Positions 3,796-49,435 of a stretch of DNA of 64,000 bases are shown here, in pieces (the first letter of the stretch is position 1; the number at the start of each line of letters is the position of its first letter). A program made the translations under genes and the position numbers. The DNA lies in contig JAJFJQ010000073.1 of the NCBI GenBank assembly GCA_021773835.1, positions 434,001 to 498,000 on the forward strand. The letters run 5' to 3'. The notes beneath the pieces were generated by a model. The model made no database searches. It was not told the DNA's origin and was given only the letters and a program-made list of their open reading frames with translations. The DNA is from Gammaproteobacteria bacterium. GTDB taxonomy: Bacteria; Pseudomonadota; Gammaproteobacteria; Ga0077536.

Positions 3796-5639
3796 TCTTC
3801 GATCGACGTTGTTCGCATTGTGCCGTCCATTAGCGCCCTGATTTGAGCCTCTGGATCTTCTCCGCACTCCGCTCGCCATAGCAAGTGCTCATCTAGTTTC
3901 GCTGGTTGGTGCTCCAATTGAGTCCACTCCATGGTCATATGGAGCGTAATTGATTTAAGTGGAGATTGGTGCTCACGATTCCAAACGCGGCATAAATGCT
4001 GTACGTAATAGGGTCTAAGCTTGATCGTTTTCTCCACTGCAAGGCGTGCGAAGAATTTGCGCCGTCGAAATGTCGAATTGTTCACTGGCAAGTAGTCCCA
4101 TTTGCGCCAGGTAGGTTCGGCTAACTTATCGAGATACAGGTCCACCGGCATGCCGTCGAATAACTCCCCGCGTGCCACAAACCACGGGCCACCCTTCGAA
4201 GGCCCTGGCGCAAACATATTCCAATTTTGTCGTAGGCGTAAGGTGCTCGCTATATTTTTAATTTGTTGCGGTGGCGGGTACGAGAATGAGTCGAGGCTTG
4301 CAAAATTTATCCATACGATGCTGAATAACAAAAAACCAACGACGGTACTTGTGAGCCAATCCAGTTCATGCCTTAGGCGCCGATACGGCAATAGAACAGC
4401 GGTAATTCGCGCTGCGCGGTTACGTGCGACCCAGGCATAAATACGGTCTCCCAACCCCGCGAGTGCGCGCGACGAGAATAGAATGCCAAGCGGCGCGAAG
4501 AGTACTGAGCGACGAAAAACGAGGGCAACCGCAGGCCAGCGGACGTGGCTTTTATTCTCATGGTCGAGCACTACCCAGCTGTTGTGCGTCTGCATTTGTT
4601 CGAAGATCGCGGCGTCTGATTGGGCGGGCGTGATTGGAATCCCCGATGGCAACAGGAAGGTGCGGAGTAGCAGGCAGATCTTACGACAGAACGTGCAATC
4701 ACCATCATAGAACATCTTGATACCAGTTCGCTCGGGTGTCCGGACCCGGGCCTCTATCCAATCCCAGATCGATCCGGGCGTAAACGCCAACAAAGACGTT
4801 ATGCTGATCATTGGAAATAATCCGATATCCATATTCACGAAAAAGCCAATGTGCATGGCGATCAATAAGAACAAACCGATGAGTCGAATTTGAAGATGGA
4901 AGATCGGGGCAAATAAGAGTAGCGGTGTTGCTAGTTCGAGGTACCAGACGAAGTACGTCAACAATTGCATGACTCCGTCAAACTGCCGCAACCAAATTCC
5001 GAATGGCGTTATTAAGGTATCGTTATGTAATGCGTAATACACGGCGGTGCCGTCTGGTATCCAAACTGGACTCGTTTTAAGTAACGCCGTAAAAAAATAA
5101 ACGGATGTCGCTTGAATCAATATTGCAGCTGTTGCGATCGAGAAATAGGCGTTGTTATTAGAGTCCTCGGTATTCAACGCGGCGTCTATTGAGTAACGTG
5201 CGCTGATTGGCAGGAATATCGCCCAGAACACGAGCACACGGAGCAGCATATCGCCGCCCTGAGAAACATATGAGTTCCGCGCATCCAGCGATATCAACAA
5301 TACCCAGCTAAGCAGGGCCGCAGTACGTGCTCTGTATCCGACTGTAAGAGCAAATGCGATAGACCCGGCTATTAGAAAAAGGGTGCATTGGATCCAAAAA
5401 GTACCGCTGATTAAGTGGAGCGATGCCCCGGTTTCATCGAATATGCCGAGCAGTGCAGCGCGTGGCAGGACGCCACCATCGGTATAGTGGGCTGTAAGAT
5501 CGCGCGCTCGAATTATGAGGTCGGCTATTATGAGTAGCCCGAGACAGCACCGTACCAAGGCAAGCGTACGGAGGTCACATCCAAAAAGGATTTTGGGACT
5601 CGTTAAGCGGGACGATAGTGCAGCTATTTTTCGTGACAT
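3792..5639 (-). CDS. HTTM-domain membrane protein fused to a DCC (thioredoxin-like) domain
   Basis: The protein has 615 residues. Residues 20-290 contain several membrane helices and fit the HTTM family (related to vitamin K-dependent gamma-carboxylase). Residues 308-400 form a DUF393/DCC domain with the signature FYDGDCTFCRK, its two cysteines at 315 and 318 set as a CxxC redox pair. Another membrane helix follows at about 430, and then a C-terminal soluble part of about 160 residues. In other bacteria HTTM and DCC domains are often encoded together, and their substrates are unknown. The protein is probably an inner-membrane redox or modifying enzyme acting on cell-envelope material. Confidence 0.82.
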   Translation of the reverse strand: MSRKIAALSSRLTSPKILFGCDLRTLALVRCCLGLLIIADLIIRARDLTAHYTDGGVLPRAALLGIFDETGASLHLISGTFWIQCTLFLIAGSIAFALTVGYRARTAALLSWVLLISLDARNSYVSQGGDMLLRVLVFWAIFLPISARYSIDAALNTEDSNNNAYFSIATAAILIQATSVYFFTALLKTSPVWIPDGTAVYYALHNDTLITPFGIWLRQFDGVMQLLTYFVWYLELATPLLLFAPIFHLQIRLIGLFLLIAMHIGFFVNMDIGLFPMISITSLLAFTPGSIWDWIEARVRTPERTGIKMFYDGDCTFCRKICLLLRTFLLPSGIPITPAQSDAAIFEQMQTHNSWVVLDHENKSHVRWPAVALVFRRSVLFAPLGILFSSRALAGLGDRIYAWVARNRAARITAVLLPYRRLRHELDWLTSTVVGFLLFSIVWINFASLDSFSYPPPQQIKNIASTLRLRQNWNMFAPGPSKGGPWFVARGELFDGMPVDLYLDKLAEPTWRKWDYLPVNNSTFRRRKFFARLAVEKTIKLRPYYVQHLCRVWNREHQSPLKSITLHMTMEWTQLEHQPAKLDEHLLWRAECGEDPEAQIRALMDGTMRTTSIED

Positions 5640-20022: not shown

Positions 20023-20481
20023 ATGCCCGGATTGTATTACGAGGAGTTTGAAATCGGTCAGGTCTTCGACCACCCCATACGCAGAACCGTGACGGAGACC
20101 GACAACGTCATGTTTACAACGATGACCCACAATCCCGCGTTACTGCATCTCGATGAAGAATATTGCAAGAACGAGACCGAGTTCGGCCAGCGCATTGTGA
20201 ACAGCTGCTTTACCCTCGCCGTTATGGTTGGTGTGTCGGTCTATGACACCACACTTGGCACGACGGTCGGCAATTTGGGTTGGGACGAGGTGCGCTTCCC
20301 CGCGCCGGTATTCCACGGCGACACCTTGCACTTTCGCACCGAAGTCGCTGACAAGCGCGAAAGCAAATCGCGACCAAATAATGGCATCGTGATTTTTGCG
20401 CATTATGCCTACAACCAACGTGATGAGTTGGTCGCCAACTGCAAACGGACTGGTCTCATGCTGAAGAGGCCGCAAGCATGA
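20023..20481 (+). CDS. MaoC-like dehydratase
   Basis: This 152-residue single hot-dog domain enzyme hydrates enoyl-CoA-type double bonds. The segment THNPALLHLDEEYCK supplies the Asp/His active pair typical of MaoC (N/D...H.D..Y), and LGWDEVRFPAPVFHGDTL is the conserved later strand. Its stop overlaps the start of the CitE-like gene (ATGA), so the two are made together. Such MaoC plus CitE pairs serve hydratase-lyase sequences such as mesaconyl-CoA hydratase/malyl-CoA lyase or itaconyl-CoA hydratase/citramalyl-CoA lyase. Confidence 0.85.
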   Translation: MPGLYYEEFEIGQVFDHPIRRTVTETDNVMFTTMTHNPALLHLDEEYCKNETEFGQRIVNSCFTLAVMVGVSVYDTTLGTTVGNLGWDEVRFPAPVFHGDTLHFRTEVADKRESKSRPNNGIVIFAHYAYNQRDELVANCKRTGLMLKRPQA

Positions 20482-21350
20482 TGCCGCGATCTTGGTTGTT
20501 CGTTCCGGGCGACAGCGAAAAGAAACTCGGCAAAGGCCCGGGAACCGGCGCGGACGCATTAATTATCGATCTTGAGGACTCAGTGGCAAAGTCGCGCCGA
20601 CCAATCGGGCGGGAACTGACCTGTGAATATCTGCGCGCCGCGGACCGGTCTCTGTCGAAGTTGTATGTGCGGATAAATCCACTCGATAGCGACGATGCCT
20701 TATTTGACTTGGCCGGGATCATTGCCGGTAAGCCGGACGGGTTGATATTGCCGAAAGCGGAAACGGCCGCAGATGCCAATCGCCTTAGTTATTACTTAGA
20801 TGCACTCGAAGTTGCCAATGGCATTGAACTAGGCAGTACAAAAATATTTCCGATCGCAACCGAGACCCCCGGCGCGATGCTGACATTGGACGGCTATCGC
20901 AACCCCAATCCTCGGATTTCGGCTTTGTCGTGGGGTGCAGAGGACTTGAGTGCGGCCATTGGTGCCTCGACCAATCAGGATGAACATGGCAATTTAAGCG
21001 CACCTTATATCCTGGCGCGTTCGTTATGCTTAATGGCTGCCCATGCGGCCGGTGTGCAGGCCGTTGACACTGTGTACACGAACTTTCGCGACGACGATGG
21101 TTTGCGTCAATCCAGCGTCCAGGCTCGACGCGATGGCTTTAGCGGCAAAATCGCCATTCATCCAAACCAGGTCGCCACTATCAACGATGCGTTTACACCG
21201 AGTGCGCAGGAGATAGAGCATGCCCAAGCGGTGATCGATCTGTTCGCAGCCAATCCTGATGCCGGCACATTGAGTCTGGACGGTAAGATGCTCGATAAGC
21301 CGCATCTCACCCAAGCCGAGCGTGTGGTCGCATTTGCCAAACATCAATGA
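20478..21350 (+). CDS. CoA-ester lyase of the HpcH/CitE family
   Basis: This is a 290-residue TIM-barrel lyase. RSWLFVPGDSEKK opens the protein as in CitE and malyl-CoA lyase, IIDLEDSV contributes the acidic metal ligand, and later ETPGAM, SWGAEDLSAAIG and KIAIHPNQV are the other family blocks. It splits a hydroxyacyl-CoA such as citramalyl-CoA or methylmalyl-CoA into two smaller acyl products. ATGA overlap with the MaoC gene supports a shared two-step route. With the MatB-like ligase upstream the set could degrade a branched dicarboxylate; the exact substrate is not readable. Confidence 0.88.
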   Translation: MMPRSWLFVPGDSEKKLGKGPGTGADALIIDLEDSVAKSRRPIGRELTCEYLRAADRSLSKLYVRINPLDSDDALFDLAGIIAGKPDGLILPKAETAADANRLSYYLDALEVANGIELGSTKIFPIATETPGAMLTLDGYRNPNPRISALSWGAEDLSAAIGASTNQDEHGNLSAPYILARSLCLMAAHAAGVQAVDTVYTNFRDDDGLRQSSVQARRDGFSGKIAIHPNQVATINDAFTPSAQEIEHAQAVIDLFAANPDAGTLSLDGKMLDKPHLTQAERVVAFAKHQ

Positions 21351-21393
21351 TCGCATTACGGCTCGCGTATAACGCTAAAAGGAAACACCAAAC

Positions 21394-22272
21394 GTGAAAA
21401 AAGAATCCTGGAGCGCGCAAAAAAAATATCTGGACGTTGGCGGCCATAAGATGGCGTATATCGAGATGGGCGAGGGCGATCCGATCATTTTCCAGCATGG
21501 GAACCCGACCTCATCGTATCTGTGGCGGAATATTATGCCCGAGCTCGCCGATGTCGGACGGTGTATAGCCGTTGACCTAATTGGAATGGGGGATTCGGAC
21601 AAATTGCCGAACTCGGGACCCGACCGATACACCTTTAAGGAGCACCAGGAGTATCTGTATGCGGCGTGGGACAGTTTGGGCATAGACAACAACGTCACCT
21701 TCGTGATTCACGATTGGGGCACGGCCCTGGGGTTTGACTGGTGCCGGCAACATCCAGGCGCGGTAAAAGGCGTTGCGCATATGGAAGGTGTGGTGAAGCG
21801 ACTCACCTGGGACGAGTGGCCAGATGCCGCAACCGACATATTCCGCGCGTTTCGGTCCGAAACCGGAGAGAAAGTAGTGCTCGAAAAAAATGTCTTTGTT
21901 GAAGGCGTATTACCAAACTCAATTCTACGCAAGCTAACCGACGATGAGATGGATGCCTATCGTGCACCGTTTGCAACGGCTGGCGAGGACCGCCGACCAA
22001 CCTTAACCTGGCCACGCCAGATCCCGCTGGGCGGCGAACCTCCTGACGTTTGCGCAATGGTCGATGCGTACGCTGCATTCATGAAAGATGCCGATTTTCC
22101 CAAGTTGTTCATCGCTGGTGATCCGGGCATGATCATGAACGGCGCACCAGCGGAGTCGGCGCGCGGTTGGAAAAACACGAGCGAGGCGACGGTTAAAGGT
22201 CTTCATTTCCTGCAAGAAGATTCGCCGCATGAGATAGCCGTTGCCGTGCGCAGCTGGTTAATGGCGATCTGA
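21394..22272 (+). CDS. Haloalkane dehalogenase (HLD-II type)
   Basis: The protein has 292 residues from a GTG after an AAAAGGA site. It carries the full catalytic set: N37 in HGNPTS, nucleophile D107 and halide-binding W108 in HDWG, E131 as acid and H279 in QEDSPHE. N and W as halide binders and Glu as acid is the HLD-II arrangement known from DhaA and DmmA. PRQIPLGGEPPDV is the typical cap-loop segment. It would hydrolyse a carbon-halogen bond to an alcohol, though related proteins may serve as hydrolases on other substrates. It has no signal peptide. It lies between CitE-like and panB genes with short gaps. Confidence 0.88.
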   Translation: MKKESWSAQKKYLDVGGHKMAYIEMGEGDPIIFQHGNPTSSYLWRNIMPELADVGRCIAVDLIGMGDSDKLPNSGPDRYTFKEHQEYLYAAWDSLGIDNNVTFVIHDWGTALGFDWCRQHPGAVKGVAHMEGVVKRLTWDEWPDAATDIFRAFRSETGEKVVLEKNVFVEGVLPNSILRKLTDDEMDAYRAPFATAGEDRRPTLTWPRQIPLGGEPPDVCAMVDAYAAFMKDADFPKLFIAGDPGMIMNGAPAESARGWKNTSEATVKGLHFLQEDSPHEIAVAVRSWLMAI

Positions 22273-22277
22273 CGCAG

Positions 22278-23093
22278 ATGAGCACACAGACCGACATCAA
22301 AAAAGTCACCCTGTTGGACTTGAAAAAGTTCAAGAGCGCTGGCGAAAAAATCGCATCATTGACGGCCTATGACGCGGGCTTTGCCACGGTGCTCGATAAC
22401 GCCGGCATGGACTTTATTCTGGTTGGCGATTCCCTCGGGATGGTAGTGCAAGGCCGCGAAACGACGATCCCGGTGACGACAGATGAGATCATCTATCACA
22501 CTAAAATGGTTGTGCGTGGTACCCAACGTGCAATGGTGATGGCGGATATGCCGTTCATGAGTTATTCCTCCGCCGACGATTGTTTGAATAATGCCGCGCG
22601 TCTGATGAAGGAAGGCGGTGCGGAGATCGTAAAGCTCGAATGGGGTGCCCTCGAGATCCCAATGGTGTCACGACTCACCGAATGCGGGATCCCAGTTTGC
22701 GCACACCTTGGATTGACCCCGCAGGCGATCCATAAATTTGGCGCTTACCGCGTTCAAGGACGCGAAGATGATACGGCGAAAAAGATGATCGATGATGCCC
22801 AAGCCTTAGAGCAAGCCGGCGCGGATGTGCTGTTGTTGGAATGTGTGCCAATGCAACTCGCGGCCGAAATTACCCGCAACGCCGCGGTGCCGGTTATCGG
22901 CATTGGCGCCGGGCCAGATGTAGACGGCCAAATCCTCGTGCTTTACGACATCCTCGATATTTGGCCGGGTAAACGCACGCGCTTTTCAAAGAACTATATG
23001 GCCAACGCCGGATCTATCCAGAACGCCGTCGAGTCCTACGTCGCCGAGGTCAAGGAGGCTCGCTTCCCCACCGCTGAATATTCCTTCGAATAG
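22278..23093 (+). CDS. panB: 3-methyl-2-oxobutanoate hydroxymethyltransferase
   Basis: This is a 271-residue decameric TIM-barrel enzyme that adds a hydroxymethyl group from methylene-tetrahydrofolate to 2-oxoisovalerate, the first step of pantothenate synthesis. All key residues are seen: D51 in VGDSLG and D90 in ADMPF bind Mg, E121 follows in KLEWG and the general base is E188 in LECVP. It is five bases after the dehalogenase stop. There is no panC nearby, so it may serve catabolism here (in either direction) instead of vitamin synthesis. Compare with the PanB-like gene at 53798, which lacks these ligands. Confidence 0.92.
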   Translation: MSTQTDIKKVTLLDLKKFKSAGEKIASLTAYDAGFATVLDNAGMDFILVGDSLGMVVQGRETTIPVTTDEIIYHTKMVVRGTQRAMVMADMPFMSYSSADDCLNNAARLMKEGGAEIVKLEWGALEIPMVSRLTECGIPVCAHLGLTPQAIHKFGAYRVQGREDDTAKKMIDDAQALEQAGADVLLLECVPMQLAAEITRNAAVPVIGIGAGPDVDGQILVLYDILDIWPGKRTRFSKNYMANAGSIQNAVESYVAEVKEARFPTAEYSFE

Positions 23094-23202: not shown

Positions 23203-23766
23203 ATGTCCACGCGCCGCGGTTTTCTAGCTTCAACACTTGCTGTGACGACAGTGCCGCTGGTCGCGCGCGCGGGCGTACTGAGCGACGCGCCAATGGTGCG
23301 GATCATCACAGAATCCACTTGCGCGGATACGCTAAGGTTTGCTGCCCGCTTTGGCATTCACTCGAGCGTCGTTGGTGGAGATCCTGCAGAGTATCTGTTC
23401 GATCTTGAGCGCGATCTGCGCGACCACAAAATCGACCTTGTGTACGGACTGAGTCGGGCCTCAACCCAATTCCTAGTTGAGCAAACCGCGCTGCCCCATG
23501 GATATCAATTCGGCTACCAGGGCCAGCATCGTTATATCAAACAGCGTCTGCTGCATTCGTTAAGTGGAACGCGTGAATCGATCGATATCGTGGCAGGTCG
23601 ACTAGAATGGCACACGCGACCATGGGCAGTTGAACTCGCCGACGCCCTGGGCGTGCTCGGCAGCTCCGTTGCCCCGACGCAGCATTCAGAAGTTTCCGCC
23701 GCTAGTGTGATCCCCAAAGACAGTTCCCGACACTTGGTTTCTTGGTTGCTGAGGCCCGTCGCCTAA
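23203..23766 (+). CDS. Tat-signal protein of unknown function, coupled to VAO-type flavoprotein
   Basis: The protein has 187 residues. It begins MSTRRGFLASTLAV and ends the signal at VARAG, a twin-arginine signal (TRRGFL) with an Ala-x-Ala type cleavage site. After the signal it is a soluble alpha-beta protein with no motif I recognise (for example IDLVYGLSRASTQFLVEQ). The start at 23203 has ACGAGGGG before it; an upstream in-frame start at 23146 would bury the signal. Its stop TAA overlaps the ATG of the flavoprotein (TAATG), so the two are coupled. PchF-type flavoproteins reach the periplasm without their own signal, so this protein could be an escort or subunit; that is a guess. Confidence 0.72.
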   Translation: MSTRRGFLASTLAVTTVPLVARAGVLSDAPMVRIITESTCADTLRFAARFGIHSSVVGGDPAEYLFDLERDLRDHKIDLVYGLSRASTQFLVEQTALPHGYQFGYQGQHRYIKQRLLHSLSGTRESIDIVAGRLEWHTRPWAVELADALGVLGSSVAPTQHSEVSAASVIPKDSSRHLVSWLLRPVA

Positions 23767-25334
23767 TGGCGGCAAATCAGTTACCGCAGGGGATCAGCGC
23801 GGAGGCATTTGCAGCGGCCTGCGACGAAATGCGCGGCGTGGTCGGCAACGAATGGTTGATTCGCGATAACGTTCAACACCTCAATAGCTATCGAGATACT
23901 TACTCCCCCGGCGATATCGATGCAACCGCACCGTCGGCAGCGGTTGCACCAAAAGATGTGACCGAGGTGCAGAAGATCCTAGCGGTCGCGCGAAAATACA
24001 AGATCCCATTGTGGACCGTGTCGACGGGGCGGAACTATGGCTATGGCGGCGCCGCGCCACGCAAAGCTGGTTGTGTCGTGCTCGATCTGAAACGCATGAA
24101 CCGGATCATTGAGGTCAACGAGAAACATGCCTATGCGGTCGTTGAGCCTGGGGTCAGCTATCACGAGTTGTACCAGCACCTTAAACAACGCGATATCAAA
24201 TTATGGCCGGATCCGGCAGCACCAGCCTGGGGCGGCGTGCTCGGGAATACCGCGGATCGTGGTGTTGGATACACGCCCTATGGCGAGCATTTCACCGTCC
24301 AATGCGGCATGCAGGTTGTATTGGCGGATGGCACGGTGGTAGAGACCGGCATGGGCTCGACGGCCAATGCGTCAACCCGAAATCTCTATAAGTACGGGCA
24401 TGGCGCGTGGGTCGATGGGATCTTCACTCAATCAAATTTCGGTGTTATCACGCAAATGGGCGTTTGGTTGTTACCGGAACCTCCGGGCTACCGGCCCTAC
24501 ATGGTGACGTTCCCGGAAGAAGATGACATCCATCAGATCACCGAGCTCGTGCGGCCATTAAAGATCAGTATGTTGATCCCAAACGCTGCAACTACGGTCG
24601 GATTGATTTGGGAAGCAGCCGTGAAGGTCAGCAAGGCGCAATACTATACCGGCTCCGGTGTGATGCCCGACAGTGCGCGGCGCAAGATGGCGGCCGATCT
24701 GGATATCGGTAATTGGAATTTTTACGGCGCGCTGTATGGTCCAGATCCGATCATGGACAACAACTGGGAGGTCATAAAAGAGTCCTTTAGCCAGGTACCC
24801 GGTGCGAAATTCTATTTTGCCGAAGACCGAAAGGGCGATGCCGCGTTCGACTATCGTGCAAAGCTGATGCGTGGCATTCCGAATATGACGGAATTTGGTT
24901 TGCTGAATTGGCTAGGCCCAGGTTCGCATGTTGATTTTTCGCCGATGTCGCCGGTGACGGGAGACGGTGCGCTGCAACAGTTTCACTTCATGCGCGACAC
25001 CTGCCATAAATTTGGCGTCGATTACATCGGAGAGTTCCTTATAGGTTGGCGCGACATGCATCATGTGTTGATGCTCGTATTTAAACGCGACGACGAAGCG
25101 CATAAGCGTGTAATCAAAGAGTTGTTTGAAGTATTGGTCGATGAAGCGACTTCCAAAGGGTACGGCGAGTACCGCACACATCTTGACTACATGGATAAGA
25201 TCTCCGGGACCTACAACTGGAACAATCGGGCGCTTGCTCGTGTCAACGAAGCAATAAAAGACGCGCTCGATCCGGACGGTATTTTATCGCCTGGAAAGTC
25301 CGGGATCTGGCCACGAAAAGATCGCGATGCTTAG
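23766..25334 (+). CDS. VAO/4-cresol-dehydrogenase-type flavoprotein (PchF-like)
   Basis: This is a 522-residue FAD oxidoreductase. The FAD loop STGRNYGYGGAAPRK (86-100), VVLDLKRMNRI and VEPGVSYHELY are the vanillyl-alcohol oxidase group N-terminal motifs. GYTPYGEHF is the FAD-stacking motif and NWLGPGSHVDFSPMSP the substrate wall. With the cytochrome c next door (sharing 8 bases) it should form a flavocytochrome that oxidises the benzylic or alkyl side chain of a phenol. It has no signal of its own. Compare the second copy at 25869, which has lost the first motif. Confidence 0.87.
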   Translation: MAANQLPQGISAEAFAAACDEMRGVVGNEWLIRDNVQHLNSYRDTYSPGDIDATAPSAAVAPKDVTEVQKILAVARKYKIPLWTVSTGRNYGYGGAAPRKAGCVVLDLKRMNRIIEVNEKHAYAVVEPGVSYHELYQHLKQRDIKLWPDPAAPAWGGVLGNTADRGVGYTPYGEHFTVQCGMQVVLADGTVVETGMGSTANASTRNLYKYGHGAWVDGIFTQSNFGVITQMGVWLLPEPPGYRPYMVTFPEEDDIHQITELVRPLKISMLIPNAATTVGLIWEAAVKVSKAQYYTGSGVMPDSARRKMAADLDIGNWNFYGALYGPDPIMDNNWEVIKESFSQVPGAKFYFAEDRKGDAAFDYRAKLMRGIPNMTEFGLLNWLGPGSHVDFSPMSPVTGDGALQQFHFMRDTCHKFGVDYIGEFLIGWRDMHHVLMLVFKRDDEAHKRVIKELFEVLVDEATSKGYGEYRTHLDYMDKISGTYNWNNRALARVNEAIKDALDPDGILSPGKSGIWPRKDRDA

Positions 25335-25809
25335 ACCGGTAAAATCCAAATGGATGTCCATAATCGCGGCGTTCGCATTCACGCTGGGCGGATGTGGTGG
25401 TGATGAGCCGCCGCCGGCCGCACCGGAGCCACCGATGGCGCCGAAAGTGACTACGACCATGGCCCCGGCTGCGGTAGAGGCCGTTTCGCCTGCGGCGGCG
25501 ACCGGCGCTGCCATCGATCCGGTCGCACAAGAACAGGGTCGTGGCATCTACGTTCACTATTGTGCGGATTGTCACGATGCCGGTGAGGGACACCCAGGGA
25601 CGATGCGGCTAGCGGCGCGCCTGGACGCTGGCAACGCTGTATTGACGACTCGCGCGGATCTCGCGCCGGAGTACGTCAAACTTATTGTGCGCAATGGCCT
25701 CGGGATGATGCCGGCGTTTCGCCCGAGTGAGGTGACCGATGCAGAACTCGATGTGCTGGCAGGATACGTTGTTAACGCGAACGATACTGCGTCCAATACG
25801 GCAAAGTAG
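25327..25809 (+). CDS. Cytochrome c subunit, probable lipoprotein
   Basis: This 160-residue protein has an N-terminal hydrophobic stretch ending in TLGGC, a likely lipobox with C23, then a Pro/Ala-rich linker (24-66). The heme site CADCH is at 79-83 and GMMPAF near 127 supplies the Met ligand of a class I cytochrome c. It resembles PchC, the electron acceptor of 4-cresol dehydrogenase, but with a longer linker and lipid anchor. Its start overlaps the end of the flavoprotein gene by 8 bases. It lies between two flavoprotein genes and could take electrons from either. Confidence 0.85.
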   Translation: MLRPVKSKWMSIIAAFAFTLGGCGGDEPPPAAPEPPMAPKVTTTMAPAAVEAVSPAAATGAAIDPVAQEQGRGIYVHYCADCHDAGEGHPGTMRLAARLDAGNAVLTTRADLAPEYVKLIVRNGLGMMPAFRPSEVTDAELDVLAGYVVNANDTASNTAK

Positions 25810-25868
25810 AAAATGAATCGGGCAATTTCAATGATCAATTCGACAAATGGCTTAAGGACCTCGACGCC

Positions 25869-27305
25869 GTGGTAGACGCCGGACCAATCATCGAGCAGGC
25901 AAAACAGATCGTCGGTGAAGACAATGCAATGGCACTCACAGACGATCGCGCCACGCGCTACCGTCACGTGCTGGGTGAGCAATTGGCATCGACTGCGCAG
26001 CCCATTGTGATCCTGCTCCCGGAATCAGTGGAACACGTGCAAGCCCTCGTAAAACTCGCGGGTTCGTCAGGATCCGCTTTGTCCACGATACCGAATGCGG
26101 CCGGCAACGGCGCGGGACTGCTCGGGCGCGATAAACCTACTGTCGTGTTGGATTTCAGTCGGATGCACAAAATCGTCGAATTCAATGCGGATTCCGGCTA
26201 TGCGTTAGTCGAACCCGGTGTGAGCTACGATCAATTGCGATCGCATATCGACGCGAATGGCGCGTCGCATTGGGTTGATAGCGATGTAAATGGCGCGAAT
26301 TCGATCAGCGGCAGTATTAGTGAACGTGCGTTTGGCTATACACCCTACGGCGATCACCTGCTCATGCAGTGCGGAATGGAAGTTGTCACTGCGAATGGCG
26401 AAGTACTACGCACCGGCATGGGTGCACTGCCTAACAGCGATACGTGGCAATTATTTAAGTACAACTATGGCCCGTACCTCGATGGCCTTTTTACCCGTTC
26501 CGATCTGGCCGTGGTGACGAAAGTTGGCGTGTGGTTGATGCCGACGCCGCCGGCATATCACCCATTTACGGTCGCGCTACCGGATAGCGCTGCGCTAGAG
26601 CAAGCGATTGAAGTGTTGCGTCCGATGAAGATCGGCATGGTCGTGCCGAACACCGTTATGATCAGTCATCGCTCTGCAGATGCAGAACTCGTGAGTGCTA
26701 GCGGAGCGGAATCGAAGGCGAGCGATGACCGCGGGGAATGGAATTTATATGGCGCCTTATACGGGCTCGACAATAATGTGCAGATCACCTGGCAAATGCT
26801 CGAAGGCGCGCTTGGCTCGATCCCGCATGCGTCGATTTCAACGATAACGGAGCCACCACAAGATCCCGCATGGCCATTACGGATGAGGTTGATGCGCGGT
26901 GAATCGGTTTACAGCAAGACTGCAGAGATCCTCGACCAAAAGCTCTGGTTTGCCGCGGCGGCACCGATGGAAGGCGAGGCGGCAACCGCGATGCGTGAGA
27001 TTGTCCATGCGGCATTGTCGGCCCGCAGCGTTGACTACACTTACGAGTATGCATTGACATGGCGCACGATGTTCATGCAGGTGTCGATCGCTTACACGTC
27101 GCAGACGCGAAGCGCGAAAATCGACGCGGCGCTCGCACTAATTGATGAGCTGACCGCCGCTGGTTATGCCATTTCGCACGACTCGCGCGAGTTGACGGCC
27201 GCTGTCAGCGCCGCGCATACCGGCGCTAGCCTACAGCAGCTTTATCGATCGCTGAATGAAGCGCTCGATCCTAAGCGGACCTTGAACGGGGGCTGGCTTG
27301 CCTGA
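25869..27305 (+). CDS. Second VAO-type flavoprotein, divergent paralogue
   Basis: The protein has 478 residues from GTG at 25869 (AAGGACC about 11 nt before). It is plainly a relative of the 23766 protein: VVLDFSRMHKIVEFNADSGY, VEPGVSYDQL, GYTPYGDHLLMQCGMEVV and GEWNLYGALYG align block by block. But the FAD loop of the first protein, STGRNYGYGGAAPR, is replaced by IPNAAGNGAGLL, and NWLGPGSHVDFSP by KLWFAAAAPMEG. FAD binding may be weaker or absent and the catalytic role changed. It might be a structural or regulatory partner, or bind a different substrate. It ends the cluster, with 326 empty bases after it. Confidence 0.82.
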   Translation: MVDAGPIIEQAKQIVGEDNAMALTDDRATRYRHVLGEQLASTAQPIVILLPESVEHVQALVKLAGSSGSALSTIPNAAGNGAGLLGRDKPTVVLDFSRMHKIVEFNADSGYALVEPGVSYDQLRSHIDANGASHWVDSDVNGANSISGSISERAFGYTPYGDHLLMQCGMEVVTANGEVLRTGMGALPNSDTWQLFKYNYGPYLDGLFTRSDLAVVTKVGVWLMPTPPAYHPFTVALPDSAALEQAIEVLRPMKIGMVVPNTVMISHRSADAELVSASGAESKASDDRGEWNLYGALYGLDNNVQITWQMLEGALGSIPHASISTITEPPQDPAWPLRMRLMRGESVYSKTAEILDQKLWFAAAAPMEGEAATAMREIVHAALSARSVDYTYEYALTWRTMFMQVSIAYTSQTRSAKIDAALALIDELTAAGYAISHDSRELTAAVSAAHTGASLQQLYRSLNEALDPKRTLNGGWLA

Positions 27306-46651: not shown

Positions 46652-47146
46652 TTAAACGAATACGGTGATGTTTTCGATGATGTCGTGGTCAAAAATAATC
46701 AGTCGCTCTTGCAATCGCCAATTGTTATTTAAGCGCACCCAATGATCGCGGCGGCTGCCGACGAATAGGTGTTCTTCATGGCCTGGGCGACTGCGAAAGA
46801 TAATGAAGTTTGAGGCGACTTTGGCCTGATTGGGGTCCGGTGCGTCGAGGATCTTGATATTAGAAACAAAATGCCGGCGGCGCGAGGGCGGCTCTTCAGC
46901 GTGCGCGAAACCTGTACGCAATCGCGCGACGCGCAGCATCATCTCAGCCTTGCTCTCGTCGAAATGGGTGAGCAAGTCCGCTTGGAAGAAGTTTTCTTCG
47001 TCGCGGTCGAGATTTTCACGTACCGGTGCCCAGTAGCGGATATCTTCGGCCATTAAGTCGAGCCAGTCTTCAAACTGACTATTATCTAGAAGCCAGTACT
47101 CATCGATGAGCACGGTTTCGAACTCATGACGCAGATCGATACTCAC
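46652..47146 (-). CDS. Aromatic-ring-hydroxylating dioxygenase, beta subunit
   Basis: This 164-residue protein has the SnoaL/NTF2-like fold of beta chains. DEYWLLDNSQFEDWLDLMAEDIRYWAP and HFVSNIKI, and VGSRRDHWVRLNNNWRLQERLIIFD, match the family pattern. The GTG at 47146 overlaps the alpha stop in GTGA, so both are coupled and made in equal amount; a further GTG at 47167 is less likely. It has structural and trimer-forming roles, with no own metal. Confidence 0.88.
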   Translation of the reverse strand: MSIDLRHEFETVLIDEYWLLDNSQFEDWLDLMAEDIRYWAPVRENLDRDEENFFQADLLTHFDESKAEMMLRVARLRTGFAHAEEPPSRRRHFVSNIKILDAPDPNQAKVASNFIIFRSRPGHEEHLFVGSRRDHWVRLNNNWRLQERLIIFDHDIIENITVFV

Positions 47147-48399
47147 CGACTCATCATCTCGCGCCACTTTTCATACAATCCGAATACTCCGATTTCAGTT
47201 GACGGCGGGTGAATCAATCCGGGCTTGTCGTCCATTGTCTTACCATGGCCGTGACCCATTTGGTAGTTGAAAGGGTACTGGCTACGGATCGGTCCGCCTT
47301 GCACGTTGGCGATATCGCCCCAGGCAACTCCGTCGTCTTGTTCAAAGATCCCAGACGGAGAAAACGTCAGTCCCATTGCCTTGCGGGTGAGATCGCGGAC
47401 GTCTGGTGGTGCGTCTTTCTCGACCAGACCATAGGATTGCACGTGGATCTCTTTCGGACCTCGAGGGTGCCACACACGGACCGTAGTGAAGCCGAGGAAA
47501 GATAAGATCGACATATTTGGGAATACCGTACCAACCTGAACGGTCAAGACCAAATCGGCCTGTGCGGGTGTTAATGTCTCACGCGCTTCTCGCCGAATTT
47601 GCTCAAAGAATGCGATCTGAGAATCCGTCGGTTGTCCGCCATCGGCATCGAAGTTGATCCAGCCGTGACCGTTAATGCACTTGACCTCAAAATCACGTGT
47701 CCAAGGGTTGTCACCACGGTAATCGCCTTCCGGGCCGAGTCCGATCTCGACCATCGAGCGATGCAGTGCACCGGTATGATAATTGTCACCGCCGAATTGT
47801 TCGGCCCCAAGTTTCCAGTTTCCGCTAAGGCGCCAGCGATGGCAGCCTGGAAAGGCGACCATGCCGTTCTTTGAGCGATTGAGTACGAGGTCGAGGTACC
47901 ACGCCATGTCGCCAAGATAGTCTTCAAGCGATTCGCAATTTGGGTCGAAGTTTGCGAATAAGAGACCGCGGAAACTCTGGACATTGGGTACTTCGATTAA
48001 TCCCCATTCGTCACGGTTCAGCTCGTTGTGATAAGCGTTGTCGAGTTGCGGTACACCGCGTAATTTACCGGACGAGTCGTAAGACCAGCCGTGGTAGGGG
48101 CAAGAAAATAGCTTCGTGTTCCCATGATCGCGTCGGCAGACACGCATGCCCCGATGTCGACAAGAGTTGAGAAAGGCACGCACTCGACCATTTGCATCAC
48201 GGGTGAGTAATACTGGGTCGGCACCGATGAACGTCGTCAGATAATCGTTTGGCTCTGGGATCTGGCTTTCATGGCCGACCATATTCCATGTGCGCGTAAA
48301 AATATTTTCGAGCTCAGCTTCGTAGACATCCTGATCGTTAAATACCCGTGGGCTAACGGTGCAGCGATCAAGGTCTACCAAGGCGGCGAAATCACTCAT
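47143..48399 (-). CDS. Aromatic-ring-hydroxylating dioxygenase, Rieske alpha subunit
   Basis: This is a 418-residue alpha chain. The Rieske pair is CRHRG (C80, H82) with CPYHGW (C100, H103). The iron site is EQFGGDNYHTGALH, with D205, H208 and H213. It needs ferredoxin and a reductase, neither of which is visible in this operon. With the beta chain it forms an alpha3-beta3 type oxygenase giving a cis-dihydrodiol. GRCH residues suggest no unusual changes. The extradiol dioxygenase lies 21 bases upstream. Confidence 0.93.
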   Translation of the reverse strand: MSDFAALVDLDRCTVSPRVFNDQDVYEAELENIFTRTWNMVGHESQIPEPNDYLTTFIGADPVLLTRDANGRVRAFLNSCRHRGMRVCRRDHGNTKLFSCPYHGWSYDSSGKLRGVPQLDNAYHNELNRDEWGLIEVPNVQSFRGLLFANFDPNCESLEDYLGDMAWYLDLVLNRSKNGMVAFPGCHRWRLSGNWKLGAEQFGGDNYHTGALHRSMVEIGLGPEGDYRGDNPWTRDFEVKCINGHGWINFDADGGQPTDSQIAFFEQIRREARETLTPAQADLVLTVQVGTVFPNMSILSFLGFTTVRVWHPRGPKEIHVQSYGLVEKDAPPDVRDLTRKAMGLTFSPSGIFEQDDGVAWGDIANVQGGPIRSQYPFNYQMGHGHGKTMDDKPGLIHPPSTEIGVFGLYEKWREMMSR

Positions 48400-48420: not shown

Positions 48421-49323
48421 TTAATGTGGTTCAGTTGGTAGGTGGCCCCAACTCGAACCATTAGTATGCAGTTGTACGGTCCAGTTATTGTCGTCCACTT
48501 CGATCGCGCCCCATCCGAATTCGACGTCGAAGCCAGAAGGCGACTTCATATAAAACGACAACATCTGATCATTGGTATGACGGCCTAGAGACAGATCGAT
48601 GGCGACGTCGTTTTGTTGGCACAAGTAATAGGTCGCACCGACATCGTCGAGTTCATTCGCTTGCACCATGAAATGATGTAGTCGCTTCGGCATTTCTCCT
48701 TGCCAAAACGCCATCGAATGGTGACGTTGATTGCAATGCAGGAACGCGAGATTGAGGTCTGATTCAACTCCGCGCTCGAGTTGTGGACGGATCCAGTCAC
48801 TCATACGGAAGCCGAGCACATCGCGATAAAACTGCAGACTGTCATCGAGGCTCTCGACAACCATTGTTATATGGCCGAGTCCTTGCTCGTTGGCAAGAAA
48901 TCCGGAGATTGGGCGTGATGATTTAAACGGCTGCGCACGATTGATCGTTGGGCCGCAATAGGCCTCCGTTGCGATGCCATTGGGATCTTCAAATTCAATT
49001 AAGCCTACCACACGGCGGCGTTTCACTGCCTCGGCGCTGCCTTCCCGGTAGGCGATCCCGGCCGTATCCAATCGCCGTTTGAGCGCGTCAAGATTTTGTT
49101 CGTCGGCAACTTCCCATCCGATTAGAACTAGATCGTCGCGACTATCTTCGGTAAGAATAAAACGGTGATGATGTTCATCCATGCGCAGCAGCACGCTACC
49201 ATCATCCTCTGGTGGTAACGCCTCTATCCCAAGGATATTGACTGCGTAGGTAGTCCACGCCTTGAGATCGCTGACCCCAAGTCCAAGATAGCCGAGCTGT
49301 GTCGGTAAGCCGTCAACGATCAT
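48421..49323 (-). CDS. Extradiol ring-cleavage dioxygenase (BphC-like, VOC fold)
   Basis: This 300-residue two-domain type I extradiol dioxygenase opens catechols next to the hydroxyls using Fe(II). The catalytic C-terminal domain shows H151 in GLGHITM, H216 or H217 in RLHHFM and E268 in GFDVEFGWG as the iron set, plus H202 in RHHSMAF and GRHTND as the acid-base His pair. The order matches 2,3-dihydroxybiphenyl dioxygenase. The start ATG is at 49323, GGAGAAATTCC before it. Confidence 0.92.
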   Translation of the reverse strand: MIVDGLPTQLGYLGLGVSDLKAWTTYAVNILGIEALPPEDDGSVLLRMDEHHHRFILTEDSRDDLVLIGWEVADEQNLDALKRRLDTAGIAYREGSAEAVKRRRVVGLIEFEDPNGIATEAYCGPTINRAQPFKSSRPISGFLANEQGLGHITMVVESLDDSLQFYRDVLGFRMSDWIRPQLERGVESDLNLAFLHCNQRHHSMAFWQGEMPKRLHHFMVQANELDDVGATYYLCQQNDVAIDLSLGRHTNDQMLSFYMKSPSGFDVEFGWGAIEVDDNNWTVQLHTNGSSWGHLPTEPH

Positions 49324-49435
49324 GGAATTTCTCCGTGTGGGATCTGTTAGATGGGAGCGCGATTCTAGCAATAGCGTTATCGATGCCGCAATAACCGAAC
49401 GGCACGTTCAATAATTGATTTTGCATCACGTCAGT

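Follow-up and report, generated by a model that had tools for sequence, protein, structure and literature searches.

A conserved Tat-signal companion as the proposed export escort of signal-less 4-phenol-oxidising flavoproteins, seen in a gammaproteobacterial four-gene block

We describe a block of four genes at positions 23203–27305 of a 64,000-nucleotide stretch of DNA (hereafter the window) from a gammaproteobacterium (assembly GCA_021773835.1, contig JAJFJQ010000073.1, positions 434,001 to 498,000). The block encodes a small protein with a twin-arginine translocation (Tat) signal, named here the companion (P0001), a flavoprotein (FlavA, P0002), a c-type cytochrome (P0003) and a second, degenerate flavoprotein (FlavB, P0004), all co-directional and tightly packed, with the first three genes overlapping each other. 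We consider it likely that the companion is a Tat hitchhiker exporting the folded FlavA, that FlavA would deliver electrons to the cytochrome and that FlavB would be an inactive partner subunit. Gene order, signals, motif losses, conservation of the families and the replacement of the companion by a signal on FlavA itself are read directly from the DNA, whereas the binding, export, localisation, substrate and stoichiometry of the system are inferred. Both ideas, Tat hitchhiking and an inactive second flavoprotein, are known, and their combination was not found described in the literature searched.

The companion begins with MSTRRGFLASTLAVTTVPLVARAG, whereas nothing signal-like was seen by eye at the N-terminus of FlavA, which begins directly at its core. 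The association of the two proteins was analysed in a census of FlavA loci, the best 80 loci of the genome contigs, together with loci from drawn genomes, being collected, flanks included, with the FlavA alignment A4. Clustering at 80% identity gave 65 representatives, or 63 after two FlavB rows (L056 and L067) were dropped, and these include second copies within one cluster (L033, L042, L070, L099 and L113). A companion was present in 44 of the 63 (41 found automatically, L018 by eye and the divergent profile hits L121 and L135; L081 via the profile alone), five FlavA had a Tat signal of their own and no companion, and 14 had neither. The background rate of Tat calls, taken from an earlier set of 35 representatives, was 4 in 139 genes of matched size at a distance of over 2 kb. 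A cytochrome gene was in range in 36 of the 44 loci with a companion, and none in the other eight. FlavA plus companion is the commonest core, many clusters having no FlavB and some no cytochrome gene in view.

The five FlavA with their own Tat signal (L029, L045, L106, L115 and L116) carry it on an N-terminal extension of 27–34 residues and have no companion beside them. They represent three changes on the tree, with L106, L115 and L116 in one group, and the mutual exclusion of own signal and companion gave a Fisher p of 0.0017 uncorrected for kinship, or 0.019 when counted as three. Of all the sequence evidence, this replacement speaks most strongly for lending its signal as the main task of the companion. 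The features of Tat hitchhiking visible at this level are all found, namely a signal on the companion, none on FlavA, partners conserved together and a signal that can move to the cargo. The FlavA of L106 may be a Tat-exported lipoprotein, as its Tat signal has a lipobox-like GLASC at the end.

The companions evolve fast, and their kinship was examined with a profile seeded from five mature parts and iterated, so that the shared signal cannot mislead. After 6 of 73 candidates had been removed by hand as plainly other proteins, this mature profile gathered 64 of the 67 Tat-called neighbours of FlavA, indicating that they form one family. It had no hits in 2010 shuffles and four in 7034 other open reading frames (ORFs), all four being Tat-signal neighbours of FlavA overlooked by our home-made caller, which demands RR.[FLIVMWYATC], a start codon at most 15 codons before it and an uncharged hydrophobic stretch after it. 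The 7034 ORFs contain neither companions nor flavoproteins, whereas the decoys of an earlier profile run still contained the companions' own ORFs. Across all collected loci the profile matched 107 times; in 105 cases a FlavA on the same strand lay no more than 700 nt away, and two matches were in divergent neighbours; in the latter (L135 and L121) the companion is transcribed away from FlavA, yet directly adjacent. The arginines R4 and R5 are the only invariant residues in an alignment of 52 members. Members found without the demand for RR still have it (4/4 control hits and 11/11 plasmid neighbours found by position), and a count of RR in 107/107 profile hits took RR anywhere in the ORF.

Neither Pfam nor NCBIfam has a family over the mature part in 50 members, where just Tat-signal models and single weak hits were obtained; Pfam TAT_signal matched 13 of the 50 at an expectation value (E) up to 0.01, and P0001 had no Pfam match over a cut-off. 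Matches of the companion profile to PDB sequences were weak and fell largely on signal regions, Tat or otherwise, the NapA signal being best (E 0.0047) and the NapA and CueO Tat signals lying at E 0.005–0.04. An AlphaFold2 model of P0001 built with 50 sequences (mean predicted local distance difference test score, pLDDT, 86.6; predicted template modelling score, pTM, 0.82) has a confidently predicted mixed strand–helix domain following a low-confidence signal. A fold search of the PDB with this model gave at best E 0.028 and a template modelling score of 0.27 by query length in Foldseek, and in VIA-align 2 a Z of 4.4 to an RNase P/Alba-like fold over 87 residues with a root-mean-square deviation of 4.7, which we take as no clear match and do not read as a new fold. 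Companions usually have 120–200 residues, and about 300 in Nitrosomonas-type loci (L080 from Nitrosospira, L090, L093 and L100 from Nitrosomonas, and similar loci), which belong to ammonia oxidisers and their relatives. No description of such a companion was found in the literature searched, which did not extend to subscription papers, including those on pchX. The system as a whole is real and widespread, and its companion family has no name in the family libraries searched.

Since the census loci came from FlavA searches, a companion-led genome search served as an independent check. In 397 Pseudomonadota genomes the companion alignment gave ten matches with E no higher than 4.5e-16, all extending at least to model position 108, and these fall in eight genomes (G000, the window's own, and G117, G161, G164, G182, G260, G301 and G322). 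None of the ten is more than about 520 bases from a FlavA match, and the same eight genomes are those with a FlavA match at E 1e-154 or better. A broken remnant in G000 ranked next, ahead of matches no better than E 1.4e-6 that fall largely on the signal. Weak matches occurred in 209 further genomes; among the matches listed, most cover about the first 30–70 positions and few 85–125, and we take them as generic Tat signals and leave them uncounted. FlavA matches without a companion were partial (G160, G318 and G342; 300–343 positions, E 1e-66 to 6e-86). The conserved adjacency, the co-occurrence in genomes and the three places on the tree with an own signal support the suggestion of the original prediction that the Tat protein may carry the signal-less FlavA out. 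TatC is encoded in the window's own genome.

Conservation of the whole block was followed in 36 genomes of the same order, eight of which match P0004 at E 1e-40 or better. By profile scores the matches are FlavB-type in G000, G026, G027, G001, G021 and G020, with a fragment in G019, and FlavA-type in G022. The idea that the four genes form one block is not supported in that form: the order companion–FlavA–cytochrome–FlavB is complete in G027 and G001 but is not invariant, FlavA and companion being the commonest pair. In G026 the block is split over two contigs, with a panB-like gene still beside the companion (L012), and G020 has companion–FlavA–FlavB with no cytochrome between the flavoproteins. 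Identities to the window proteins in these relatives are 25–49% for the companions, 36–70% for FlavB and 46–89% for FlavA.

Plasmids of Sphingobium, Novosphingobium (pNL1) and Paraburkholderia likewise carry parts of the block side by side, and this recurrence in genus, family and plasmids makes the block more than chance. In the 15 of 34 plasmid records that were inspected, a Tat-signal neighbour was found by position in 11 of 12 regions from Pseudomonadota and Campylobacterota, the exception being Paraburkholderia pBN3, and in none of three actinobacterial regions (two Rhodococcus, one Corynebacterium), which have no cytochrome either. In the pBN3 region (L025) the pBN2-type cluster is present once more, with FlavA shortened at its start beside an IS5 transposase and no companion. 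On Roseomonas, Rhizobium and Massilia plasmids, which with the three actinobacterial records made up a further independent check, a cytochrome and a Tat-signal hypothetical protein lie directly 5' of FlavA, and the mature profile matches the Roseomonas (E 9.3e-20) and Massilia (E 4.6e-9) proteins, with no hit for Rhizobium. The order is cytochrome–Tat protein–FlavA on a Sulfuricurvum plasmid, without FlavB in the annotated region, and the Tat protein is placed after FlavA on a Caballeronia plasmid.

FlavB is 30% identical to FlavA and matches the same solved chains far more weakly. As originally predicted, it has lost the FAD (flavin adenine dinucleotide) loop, where IPNAAGNGAG replaces STGRNYGYGG, and the NWLGPGSHVDFSP block; the catalytic Tyr-Arg pair and the C-terminal GKSGIW motif are gone as well. 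All 26 aligned FlavB rows (B_L113, a FlavA-type paralogue, being omitted) lack the STG[RK]N.GYGG loop, the Tyr-Arg pair, the C-terminal GK.GIW and a histidine in the His388 column, the last being a weak criterion by itself since some p-cresol methylhydroxylase (PCMH)-group FlavA also lack that histidine. The rows retain the middle part of the fold (GYTPYGDH). In quick, unrooted trees of this subfamily alone, made without bootstrap, a branch separates the 23 FlavB rows from all others with a Shimodaira–Hasegawa-like approximate likelihood-ratio test (SH-aLRT) value of 99, or 100 with 21 rows after long and odd rows were removed; the first tree omits nine rows (fragments, duplicates, two FlavB rows named A, and B_L113) and the second five more. 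FlavB-type proteins occur in gammaproteobacterial metagenome-assembled genomes (MAGs), Cycloclasticus, sphingomonads and Paraburkholderia, that is, in alpha-, beta- and gammaproteobacteria. We take FlavB to be a probably inactive partner subunit kept across lineages, with a FAD-free state suggested by the motif losses. A different arrangement, with two flavoproteins that are both FlavA-type, is seen in L033, L039, L042, L070, L099 and L113.

FlavA itself fits the 4-phenol-oxidising subfamily of the vanillyl-alcohol oxidase (VAO)/PCMH flavoproteins, having FAD_binding_4 (E 2.8e-34), a C-terminal oxidase domain (Pfam FAD-oxidase_C) and an adjacent c-type cytochrome; FlavB retains FAD_binding_4 (E 1.3e-21), with no FAD-oxidase_C match in Pfam at E up to 1. 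The closest solved chains to FlavA are 8s7p, titled just "Oxidoreductase", and its variants (E 3.6e-197), followed by eugenol oxidase, VAO and PCMH chains (E 1.3e-138 to 1dii). FlavA keeps the FAD loop and YRTH, of which FlavB keeps neither. The block around His388 is presumably the place of covalent FAD binding in VAO-type enzymes, and the Tyr-Arg pair in YRTH we take to be the phenolate-binding pair. P0003 contains Cytochrome_CBB3 (Pfam, E 2.7e-14), its start overlaps the end of FlavA by eight bases, and its export signal, with a lipobox-like LGGC, was judged by eye; it is the probable electron acceptor of FlavA. The features on which the original prediction was built, a cytochrome with C23 and CADCH between two flavoproteins and a companion coupled to FlavA by TAATG, all lie where it had placed them (Table 1). 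On the Sphingobium, Novosphingobium and Paraburkholderia plasmids the clusters include aldehyde dehydrogenase, subunits C and D of a non-oxidative decarboxylase and UbiX, and these partners point to a route from 4-alkylphenol via aldehyde and acid to a decarboxylated phenol. None of these three kinds of gene adjoins the block in the window.

Table 1. Positions in the window of the four genes and of the sequence features discussed
Feature	Position	Strand	Basis or detail
Tat-signal companion P0001, 187 aa, proposed FlavA export escort	23203..23766	+	Sequence, family alignments, AlphaFold2 model
Twin-arginine codons, R4-R5 of P0001	23212..23217	+	
TAATG stop/start overlap of companion and FlavA	23764..23768	+	TAA 23764-23766, ATG 23766-23768
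FlavA (P0002), 522 aa, 4-phenol-oxidising VAO/PCMH-type flavoprotein without signal peptide	23766..25334	+	Pfam, motifs
FlavA FAD loop STGRNYGYGG, residues 86-95	24021..24050	+	
FlavA His388, in putative covalent-FAD block	24927..24929	+	
FlavA YRTH with Tyr-Arg pair, residues 469-472	25170..25181	+	
c-type cytochrome lipoprotein P0003, lipobox C23, CADCH haem motif	25327..25809	+	
FlavB (P0004), 478 aa, GTG start, degenerate paralogue	25869..27305	+	
FlavB IPNAAGNGAG in FAD-loop position, residues 74-83	26088..26117	+	

Upstream of the block (20023–23093) lie genes for a MaoC-like hydratase and a CitE-like lyase, as well as for a haloalkane-dehalogenase-family hydrolase and a PanB-family protein that both exceed the NCBIfam cut-offs. 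Further along, as recognised by eye, a ring-hydroxylating dioxygenase pair (46655–48399) stands beside an extradiol-type dioxygenase (48424–49371), an aromatic-degradation setting. The window's own genome has a second FlavA–cytochrome–companion set (L107, on G000:C31) and a further lone relative on C32 (L114). The broken companion remnant, with stops, is at G000:C23:79152-79421 (L176, matches at 4719–5091, minus strand), and in the 10 kb around it FlavA matches only as chance-level pieces.

Among known systems, the PCMH of Pseudomonas putida (PchF/PchC; 1dii and 1wve) resembles the FlavA set in combining a signal-less VAO/PCMH flavoprotein with a c-type cytochrome that bears an export signal. 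FlavA differs from it in being closer to 8s7p and to eugenol and vanillyl-alcohol oxidase chains and in the histidine of the covalent-FAD block, and the window block has two genes more than the PchF/PchC pair; pchX is a further gene of the pch cluster. The original prediction took one flavoprotein with one cytochrome as the only known form, and this is not supported in that form. The PCMH of Geobacter metallireducens was reportedly described in 2008 as alpha alpha' beta2 with a FAD-free alpha', and it is like the window block in having two unequal flavoprotein subunits and a cytochrome. For the Geobacter enzyme the available part of PMC12724174 gives the names PcmI, PcmJ and PcmG and an identity of 39% between PcmJ and BpfA, from which PcmJ is probably less degenerate than FlavB; the same part describes the P. 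putida flavoprotein as without a signal, its cytochrome as signal-bearing and the enzyme as periplasmic.

BpfAB of Sphingobium yanoikuyae DN12, as presented in that part of PMC12724174, is like the FlavA–cytochrome pair of the window, and a protein of strain SJTF8 is given there as 100% identical to the characterised BpfA. In the Sphingobium SJTF8 plasmid region, which has the bpf gene order, a Tat-signal hypothetical protein directly follows the cytochrome and matches the full companion profile A6 (E 8.9e-12) and the mature profile (E 7.5e-6; one-sequence search). This region differs from the window in having no FlavB in its annotated part. The main text of PMC12724174 does not name by itself the gene between orf5018 and orf5016 (orf5017 has 0 occurrences), and its available part ascribes export of the flavoprotein to the Sec/signal peptidase II (SPII) signal of the cytochrome.

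The term Tat hitchhiker is used, in the available part of PMC6719666, for the gamma subunit of the FAD glucose dehydrogenase of Burkholderia cepacia, and the available part of PMC4273604 provides PaoABC as another example. Like the window block, the B. cepacia enzyme has a small Tat-signal subunit, a FAD catalytic subunit and a c-type cytochrome, but the flavoprotein is of the glucose–methanol–choline (GMC) type with a 3Fe-4S cluster and the cytochrome has three haems. Its gamma subunit is described with five helices, whereas the companion model mixes strands and helices, and the companion-profile search of PDB sequences at E up to 1 listed no gamma subunit.

Our working scheme is modelled on these two hitchhikers, as far as the available parts of both papers describe them. 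FlavA would fold and acquire FAD in the cytoplasm and bind the folded mature domain of the companion, perhaps together with FlavB, and TatABC would then move the FlavA–companion assembly out on the companion's signal. The cytochrome would travel apart by Sec on its lipoprotein signal, receive its haem in the periplasm and be membrane-anchored. FlavB is probably the structural alpha' partner of FlavA and may take the place that a second catalytic subunit has in the usual dimer, in line with the FAD-free alpha' reported for Geobacter PCMH. In the periplasm FlavA would oxidise a phenol at its para-alkyl or benzylic position, with electrons passing from its FAD to the cytochrome.

Several observations weigh against this scheme. 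Of the 63 representatives, 14 have neither a companion nor an own signal, nine with a cytochrome (the second copy in L042, L053, L054, L070, L133, L134, L136, L137 and L141) and five without (L074, L111, L114, L122 and L139). Two of the 14 are actinobacterial (L074, from an Actinomycetales MAG, and L122, of the same class). The genomes or MAGs of the other 12, assigned by contig prefix or handle, hold a companion, whether at a different locus or at the same one, so that its supply in trans is possible; companion-less, signal-less FlavA may also use a Tat-free route. According to the available part of PMC12724174, BpfAB is active from bpfA1B1 alone in Escherichia coli, and the companion would therefore be dispensable for catalysis in vitro, which suits an escort and is silent on export. 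The mature profile misses the companions of L024, L073, the second of L140, L018 and Rhizobium, and the invariance of RR is partly built in by the caller's demand for it. A FlavB without FAD is read from motif loss alone, and a single-sequence structure model of FlavB (pLDDT 34.9) was unusable.

It is unlikely, in our judgement, that the companion instead acts as a chaperone in assembly or flavinylation, or serves in the periplasm as an additional subunit for electron transfer or substrate delivery, and is Tat-exported for itself while FlavA leaves with the cytochrome or otherwise. Such a role would suit the size of its mature domain, a predicted well-ordered fold of about 150 residues that exceeds the needs of a bare signal, and the 300 or so residues of the Nitrosomonas-type members, and export with the cytochrome is the proposal in the available part of PMC12724174. 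In the three parts of the tree in which FlavA itself bears a Tat signal, however, no companion stands beside it, and a subunit or chaperone would need to be dispensable just there. Moreover, Sec-exported c-type cytochromes receive their haem outside and cannot carry a folded flavoprotein. We regard as similarly improbable that FlavB keeps a non-covalent flavin and a reaction of its own, two flavoenzymes sharing one cytochrome. Its retained FAD_binding_4, much of the middle part and its persistence in many lineages as one group would fit this, but none of the 26 rows has the FAD loop, the Tyr-Arg pair, GK.GIW or the histidine (the last point weak alone). A Tat-like ORF merely preceding FlavA by chance or through annotation, or a decayed duplicate, is very hard to credit: the mature part has no Pfam or NCBIfam family and a broken copy lies elsewhere in the genome, but the background Tat rate is low and companion and FlavA co-occur in the same 8 of 397 genomes.

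Beyond the window, we lean, with less assurance than for the block itself, towards the companion family being a general Tat hitchhiker of cytochrome-coupled 4-phenol-oxidising flavoproteins in Proteobacteria and Campylobacterota, where, if FlavB is present, one companion would export a FlavA–FlavB–companion assembly in which FlavB is dead. PCMH-like enzymes serve as model flavocytochromes and attract study for the breakdown of lignin, cresol and bisphenol. A conserved Tat escort would offer an alternative to the account of 2025 based on the cytochrome signal (PMC12724174, available part), and could aid heterologous expression. If the general role is true, it would explain how signal-less PCMH-like enzymes reach the periplasm, and would be a natural case of small-partner Tat hitchhiking in flavoproteins that have no relation to glucose dehydrogenase. 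The analysis further shows a degenerate flavoprotein subunit retained in alpha-, beta- and gammaproteobacteria.

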